Shown here piece after piece: positions 1,133-64,000 of a DNA stretch of 64,000 nucleotides (the first letter of the stretch is position 1; each line of letters opens with the position of its first letter). Location of the stretch: assembly GCA_025869435.1 (NCBI GenBank), contig JAOZVS010000058.1, positions 18,780-82,779 on the forward strand, written 5' to 3'. The position numbers and the translations under genes were made by a program. Origin of the DNA: Zavarzinia sp. (GTDB taxonomy: Bacteria; Pseudomonadota; Alphaproteobacteria; Zavarziniales; Zavarziniaceae). The notes under the pieces were generated by a model. That model had not been told where the DNA came from, made no database searches, and saw only the letters and a program-made list of their open reading frames with translations.

Positions 1133-1965
1133 GCATCGACGACCTGCCCCCCTTGCGCGACGTGATCGCGCGCCATGGCCTTGCTGCGAAAAAGACGCTG
1201 GGCCAGAATTTCCTCCTCGATCTCAACATCACCGCGCGGATCGCCCGGGCGGCCGAAATCGTGCCCGGCGACCTTGTCTATGAAGTCGGCCCCGGCCCCG
1301 GCGGGCTGACCCGCGCCTTGCTCGCGGCAGGCGCGACGGTGGTCGCGGTCGAGCGGGACGAGCGCTGCCTGGAAGCCCTGGCGGAAATCGCCGCCGCCTA
1401 TGAGCCGGGCCGGCTGACCGTGATCCCGGGCGATGCCCTCGAGATCGACGAAGCGGCGGTGCTGGGCGGGCAGCCGGCGAAGATCGTCGCCAATCTGCCC
1501 TATAACGTCGGCACCGCCCTGCTCATCCGTTGGCTGTCGGCCGATCCCTGGCCGCCCTGGTGGCGCTCGCTCACCCTGATGTTCCAGCGCGAGGTGGCCG
1601 AGCGGCTGACCGCGGCACCGCGCGACGACGCCTATTCCCGTCTGTCGATCCTGGCGCAATGGCGGTGCCGGGTGCGCCATCATTTCGACCTGAACCCCAA
1701 GGCCTTCGTGCCGCCGCCCAAGGTCACCTCGACCGTCGTCGGCCTGTGGCCGATGGCGGCGCCCGAGCATGACTGCCGCCTGTCGTCGCTGGAGCGGGTG
1801 ACGGCCCAGGCTTTCGGCCAGCGCCGCAAGATGCTGCGCCAGAGCCTGAAGGGCCTCGGCATCCCGCCCGAGACCCTGCTGGAGACGGCGGGGATCGCCC
1901 CGACCGCGAGGGCCGAGGAACTCGGCATCGCGGAATTCGCCCGCCTCGCCCGGCAGTTGCCCTGA
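1129..1965 (+). CDS. rsmA: 16S rRNA (adenine1518-N6/adenine1519-N6)-dimethyltransferase
   Basis: 278 aa; [39 protein letters not shown]; overlaps pdxA stop (ATGA). Confidence 0.95.
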
Positions 1966-62115: not shown

Positions 62116-62181
62116 CGCGCTTCATCGCGCCCGCGCCCGTCTTCGCGCCATAAGCGGCGGGTGTTTCCAGAGAAGCCGGAC

Positions 62182-63387
62182 ATGGACATCAGCACCATCG
62201 ATCTCGCGGGCCCTTTCTGGGCCGATATCCTGCTGCGCCTGATCGGCGCCTTCTACGTCTTCGCCGGGCTCGTCGCGCTGCGGGCGACGGTGTTCGGCAG
62301 CTTTCTCGACCGGGCGCTGGCGCAGATCTCCGGCAAGGCGGAGCCGGGCGCCGACCGCTTCCGCCGGCGCTGGCTGATCGGCGCCGCGATCCTGATCGCC
62401 CTCGGCGGTGCTTCGCTCATCCTGCTGTGGCGGGGGGCGCTGGCGCTGTTCATCGTGAATACGCTGGGCCAGGCGCTATATCTCGGCCTCGTCGCGCCCC
62501 ACTGGCTCGACCGCGACGATCCGCCGGAGCCGTCGGGCCGCCGCGCGACCTGGCGGGCCTTCGCCGTTTACGGCGCGGCGACGCTGGTGGTCGCCTCGGC
62601 GGCGGCGAATGGCCGCCTGCGCTCCCTTGGCGAGATTGATCCGGCGCTCATCGTCCTCGTCGTGCTCGGCCTTGCCGGCGCCCTCGGCTTCCAGCTTCGC
62701 CACCTCGTCCGCGCGCCGTCGCAGGACCTGTCGGCGGCGGCACCGGAGCCCCCGCCCCCGTATCTGATCCTCACCCCCGGGTGGGATGGCACCGGCCTCG
62801 TCGATGCCGCCGACGGCCGCCCCTGGGAATTCTGGTCCATGGGGGATCATGTCCCCGAGGCGCTTCAGGCGCGGCTGCGGGACTGGATCAAGCTGTTCAT
62901 GGCCCATGCCGACGAGGATGATCCCCGCCGCGCCGCCCTGCGCGACCCGTCCGCCCAGGACGAGATCACGGCGATGGGCGCCGAGCTGCTGGCACAGATC
63001 GCGCCCTGCCTGCCGGGCATCACCCTCGATTTCGCCCCCGTGGCCCGGCCCGGCCTGAACCGCTGGCCCGATGCCTCCAAGGTCAGGATCAACCCCCGCT
63101 GCCTGTCCTGGCCACTGCAGATCCCGGCCCTCGACCCCGACGAGGACGAACGGGACATCAACCCCGCCGACTTCGGCCTGTCCTACCGTCTCGCCGAAGA
63201 CCTCGTGGCCTGGAACATGAGCTTCGAGGAAGCGATCCCCGACCTCGAAGCCGGCGCGGAGCCGATCTGGTCGGACGAAGCCCGCGCCGCCTTCATCGCC
63301 GAAGGCAACGCCCTTACCACCCGCCTGCGCCGCGAACTCGACGCGACAGGGCGCGGCCATGTCGAGATCGAGACGGTGTTGAGTTGA
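62182..63387 (+). CDS. hypothetical membrane protein with soluble C-terminal domain
   Basis: About 5-6 TM then LTPGWDGTGLVDAADGRPWEFWSMGDHVPEAL...; GTG at 62161 is an alternative start. Confidence 0.7.
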   Translation: MDISTIDLAGPFWADILLRLIGAFYVFAGLVALRATVFGSFLDRALAQISGKAEPGADRFRRRWLIGAAILIALGGASLILLWRGALALFIVNTLGQALYLGLVAPHWLDRDDPPEPSGRRATWRAFAVYGAATLVVASAAANGRLRSLGEIDPALIVLVVLGLAGALGFQLRHLVRAPSQDLSAAAPEPPPPYLILTPGWDGTGLVDAADGRPWEFWSMGDHVPEALQARLRDWIKLFMAHADEDDPRRAALRDPSAQDEITAMGAELLAQIAPCLPGITLDFAPVARPGLNRWPDASKVRINPRCLSWPLQIPALDPDEDERDINPADFGLSYRLAEDLVAWNMSFEEAIPDLEAGAEPIWSDEARAAFIAEGNALTTRLRRELDATGRGHVEIETVLS

Positions 63388-63501
63388 GGGATCGATGGAA
63401 CCGGACCGGTACATGTTCTTATCTATCCGCTTTCGATCGATATGCCGTGACGTGCGAACGGGCGTTATTACATACTGCCTGAAGGCTCCAAGGACACCTC
63501 C

Positions 63502-63750
63502 ATGCGCACCCCCCGTCTCGGCAAGGTCGGCAACTCGACCGGCATCACGGTCCCCCGTTCGACCGGCATCACGGTCCCCCGTGAGGTGCTGGAGGAGGCG
63601 AATATGTCTCGCGGCGACGAGGTTACCCTGACGGTACGCGACGGCCGGATCGAGATCGCCAAGGCCCACGACGGTTACAACAAGGCGATGGAGGCCGGCC
63701 GGGCTTTCGCCGCCCGCTACCGCCGGACCATGGCGGTGCTGGCGAAGTGA
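63502..63750 (+). CDS. AbrB/MazE-like (SpoVT-AbrB fold) antitoxin with internal duplication
   Basis: RLGKVGNSTGITVPRSTGITVPREVLEEANMSRGDEVTLTVRDGRIEIAKA. Confidence 0.85.
   Translation: MRTPRLGKVGNSTGITVPRSTGITVPREVLEEANMSRGDEVTLTVRDGRIEIAKAHDGYNKAMEAGRAFAARYRRTMAVLAK
63535..63582 (+). repeat. two exact tandem copies of a 24-bp unit
   Basis: TCGACCGGCATCACGGTCCCCCGT x2 (63535-63558, 63559-63582). Confidence 0.97.
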
Positions 63751-63950
63751 AGGGGCCGGTTTTCCCGCCTGTGGAAGCCATCATTGATCTGCACAGCGAA
63801 TTGCTGGCCGAACATGGCGGAGCGTCTGGCCTTCGGGAACGGGGCGCCCTGGAGGCTTCCCTCGCCCGTCCCCACCAGATCATGGCCTATGCCGAGGGGA
63901 CCATTTCGGTATTTTCGACACCTCAGACACCCCATTCTGCAGGGGCTTAG
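63747..63950 (+). pseudogene. truncated Doc-like (Fic/death-on-curing) toxin
   Basis: VKGPVFPPVEAIIDLHSELLAEHGGASGLRERGALEASLARPHQIMAYAEGTISVF then non-Doc tail STPQTPHSAGA*; no HPFxDGNKR motif. Confidence 0.75.
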
Positions 63951-64000
63951 AGCCTGACCCAAAAGCCTATTGCGCCCGGCAGGGTTGTGTGATTCACCGA
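63950..64000. mobile_element. possible left end of an IS5-family-like element (continues beyond window)
   Basis: GAGCCTGACCCAAAAGCC... preceded by TTA (TNA-type target) at the point of toxin disruption. Confidence 0.4.

Follow-up and report, generated by a model that had tools for sequence, protein, structure and literature searches.

A tandem duplication in a MazE/AbrB-type antitoxin gene next to a truncated doc toxin gene in Zavarzinia: probable decay of a toxin-antitoxin module

The antitoxin and its described counterparts

Among the described systems with which our locus can be compared is TasA-TasB of Bacillus thuringiensis pGI1, a composite mazE-doc toxin-antitoxin system with homologues reported from many proteobacteria (PMC1626090). 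The locus in the window (the whole stretch of 64,000 nucleotides of Zavarzinia sp. DNA that was analysed) resembles TasA-TasB in having a MazE/AbrB-like antitoxin gene directly 5' of a Doc-type toxin ORF, of which the first 56 codons remain, and an antitoxin of similar size; it differs from it in that its toxin is truncated and its antitoxin carries an eight-residue duplication. Phd-Doc of phage P1 has the Doc-type toxin family in common with the window, but the window antitoxin is of the AbrB type and not a Phd. The literature on duplications or decay of antitoxins yielded only loosely matching papers.

The antitoxin ORF lies at positions 63502-63750 of the forward strand and encodes a protein of 82 aa, MRTPRLGKVGNSTGITVPRSTGITVPREVLEEANMSRGDEVTLTVRDGRIEIAKAHDGYNKAMEAGRAFAARYRRTMAVLAK, the N-terminus of which reads MRTPRLGKVGN-STGITVPR-STGITVPR-EVLEEANMS... 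It matches the Pfam family PF04014 (MazE_antitoxin) with 33 bits against a cutoff of 24.7, as expected of an AbrB/MazE fold. A profile built from the antitoxin and its relatives aligns with solved structures of the MazE of mazEF (PDB 1mvf, 1ub4, 2mrn) at positions 5-44, that is, over the N-terminal swapped-hairpin domain; in contrast to mazEF, the partner in the window is Doc/Fic rather than MazF, and the C-terminal half found no match in this comparison. The top NCBIfam match is TIGR02609 (doc_partner), but at 35.5 bits it falls below the cutoff of 55.9, and we make no claim to membership of that equivalog; what we claim is its kinship with the 74-aa relatives that adjoin doc genes.

The 24-bp duplication

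Two identical 24-bp copies, each encoding STGITVPR, stand in tandem on the forward strand at 63535-63558 and 63559-63582. Both Tandem Repeats Finder (TRF) and direct comparison of the copies reveal the array, which TRF reports as 63535-63582, period 24, 2.0 copies and a 100% match, with a score of 96 that is the highest in the window. No other perfect tandem duplication with a period of 12-60 occurs in the window, and none was seen in 20 windows simulated with a second-order Markov model. The earlier note on this DNA had described an exact, in-frame tandem repeat within the DNA-binding element of a MazE/AbrB-like antitoxin, and all of this holds: the copies differ at no nucleotide, the family assignment is supported by both the Pfam score and the profile match, and the repeat aligns with the swapped-hairpin domain of MazE.

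That note had also held the event to be recent and had ascribed it to slippage, and here the two claims part company. The set of close homologues consists of 24 loci with 15 distinct proteins (some loci represent the same genome in two collections), and in every one of the 24, among them relatives from Azospirillum, Nitrospirillum, Magnetospirillum and Skermanella and those added by surveying one family more widely, a single STGxTxPR copy is found in a protein of 74 aa. Since each close relative has one copy, the duplication is derived and, among the sequences compared, private to this genome, which agrees with a recent origin and rules out that two copies are an ancient, conserved state. The identity between the copies spans exactly 24 nt and extends into neither flank. 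The array is thus exactly 48 nt long, with zero microhomology at its junctions, and replication slippage at short direct repeats was rejected as its source; positive evidence for a simple homology-directed slippage is lacking. A weak hairpin in the repeat region (z = -2.0) is no proof of stalling. The structural effect of the duplication was also sought with AlphaFold, and nothing was concluded from the two models, which were both poor (pLDDT 69 and 72, pTM 0.40).

It is very improbable that the repeat is an artefact of assembly or consensus calling. Such an origin would be favored by the position of the repeat some 420 bp from a contig end that was itself caused by a repeat, and by the state of the assembly (171 contigs, 75.5% complete); against it, ordinary short reads span an exact array of 48 bp, and the reading frame is preserved.

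The operator-like element, the truncated toxin gene and the insertion sequence

A conserved promoter/operator-like element, present in 17 distinct versions at 24 homologous loci, precedes the antitoxin gene at 63447-63476 on the forward strand. It comprises a -35-like GTGACG, an imperfect inverted repeat GTGCGAACG-GG-CGTTATTAC and a -10-like TACATACT. In the relatives the consensus is TTGACGTAATAACGnnCGTTATTACATAAT, with the palindrome between the -35 and -10 boxes, about 25 bp 5' of the start codon; as far as sequence can tell, this is where autoregulation would predict a putative operator to lie. The parts of the literature that were examined contain no description of such a conserved palindromic operator-like element. 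The window version, GTGACGTGCGAACGGGCGTTATTACATACT, matches the consensus at 25/30 positions, which is within the normal range, and three positions carry a base that none of the relatives has (the first base of the -35, and an AA to GC change in the left half-site). Decay of the operator had been considered as support for decay of the window module; its score is ordinary, so that the claim is limited to these three private bases.

Most relatives have a Doc toxin gene directly 3' of the antitoxin. The corresponding Doc/Fic ORF of the window, at 63747-63950 on the forward strand, has a GTG start that overlaps the antitoxin stop, and its homology to Doc is confined to 63747-63914, the first 56 codons (against a 130-aa relative, tblastn aligns residues 1-56 only, with 79% identity). 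The ORF scores 22.8 bits against PF02661, just under the cutoff of 24, and the active-site motif (HPFVDGNKR / HPFxDGNKR; in general form HxFx(D/E)GNxxR) is absent, the Doc homology ending before it. The toxin gene is broken in this assembly. A search for the remainder of doc in the 75.5%-complete assembly gave only a non-significant match; the downstream segment may lie in the quarter of the genome that the assembly lacks, the far side of the adjoining IS element being unassembled.

Between the end of the Doc homology and this element lie 35 bp (63915-63949) that recur nowhere else in the genome and have neither a noteworthy plasmid match nor any other informative one. Their last three bases are TTA, which fits a TNA-type target, and the piece may be the mark of a deletion or of an earlier insertion. 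Then follows, at 63950-64000 on the forward strand, the terminal end of an IS5-family element (GAGCCTGACCCAAAAGCC...), inside which the contig, and with it the window, stops. Over 52 bp it shares 87% identity with the end of an element that is complete in genome G002, with both terminal repeats and ORFs for DUF4096 and DDE_Tnp_1 (an IS5-type transposase), and the terminal repeat is thereby recognized in the window. The likeness to the IS5 family consists of the shared terminal repeat GAGCCTGAC(C/T)CAAAAGCC and a fit to the TNA-type target, with only one end of the element present in the window; similar plasmid DNA is annotated as an IS5 family transposase, and we take the end to resemble the IS1031-like ends of that family. 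A second contig of the assembly, C139, ends in the same 54 bp. A contig break is the usual outcome of a repeated IS.

Decay of the module and the competing readings

We believe, with a probability of roughly three in four, that the locus is a mazE-doc module of the TasA-TasB type in decay, and that the duplication arose under relaxed selection after the loss of the toxin. Most likely we are dealing with the decay of an ordinary toxin-antitoxin pair rather than with a new regulatory design, and the best reading of the duplication is that it is neutral or a loss of function. Loss of the toxin would have freed the antitoxin from selection to bind both toxin and operator, so that its N-terminal hairpin could retain a duplication that kept the reading frame. 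Between the GN turn and helix 1, the eight extra residues would most likely add a loop or another beta-2-like strand, with a weakened or abolished binding of the operator as the predicted result. Altered operator binding by the 82-aa form, which the earlier note had proposed as an alternative to altered dimerization, is plausible; with no toxin to control, such a change, if true, would probably be of little consequence, and the cell would be affected slightly or not at all. It is highly doubtful that the duplicated STGITVPR forms a functional AbrB-type domain with a longer hairpin and an altered operator specificity, acting as a solitary regulator after toxin loss; a truncated toxin gene adjoining an IS5-family end is better explained by decay under relaxed selection than by a changed specificity.

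That the toxin was lost before the duplication occurred is what we infer, and a broader set of 53 homologous loci, 50 with a full-length doc and three without it (the window, L067 and L068), bears on the order. Two of the three loci without an intact doc, but none of the 50 with one, have an antitoxin indel longer than a single residue (Fisher P = 0.002 for loci, 0.003 for distinct proteins and 0.047 when the window is omitted, since it had prompted the test); this comparison was made after the window had been seen, and involves related sequences and a sample of three doc-less loci. The association between indels and doc loss supports relaxed selection but does not prove it. The window antitoxin has gained eight residues, and that of L068 has lost 15, beginning right after the same GN. 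The opposite order, in which the duplication came first and changed the operator binding or dimerization of a working module, whose toxin was later lost because its misregulated expression was harmful, is an unlikely alternative. The duplication does fall within the homologue of the MazE swapped-hairpin domain, and toxin loss is a usual escape from a deregulated toxin-antitoxin module, which also counts for this order; what speaks against it is that the 50 loci with an intact doc contain not one such indel.

Some features of the locus count against its decay. The antitoxin still has an open frame and a well-conserved C-terminal half, its dN/dS against the relatives is low (about 0.12-0.42, with one repeat copy omitted and dS near saturation) and the operator score is normal. 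The open frame, the conserved C-terminal half and the low dN/dS imply that decay is very recent or that some constraint is left. The same features, with the near-normal operator, would suit an antitoxin that has been retained as a solitary regulator or an anti-addiction protein, with the eight-residue insertion tolerated or even adaptive. We regard such retention as improbable: the protein has no known second target site, and decay rather than persistence is what the other doc-less relatives display. Three private substitutions of the window antitoxin at otherwise invariant sites (T4P, T7G and L27M) were discarded as support for decay, for equally isolated relatives with an intact doc have two each. 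If decay is the correct reading, the locus offers a possible snapshot of the process, in which the toxin is cut first and the antitoxin is then free to accumulate in-frame indels. It would be a small comparative case of relaxed selection on orphan antitoxins, involving no new mechanism and of modest weight.

As to the two other doc-less loci, L068 (about 1501-1677, minus strand) has its 15-residue antitoxin deletion in frame and no doc within 1.5 kb, and by its sequence would be an independent orphan antitoxin in decay. In L067 (1501-1722), the antitoxin homologue has many substitutions at otherwise conserved sites and no doc downstream. The putative operators of both are decayed, to 17/30 in L067, where the right half alone is recognizable, and 14/30 in L068.

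Upstream of the module, the ORF at 62161-63387 is conserved and belongs to no Pfam family; four further genomes of the genus carry relatives of it. In one genome of the genus, G001, this upstream gene is present and the module absent, the similarity stopping at window position 63392, which fits an accessory module.
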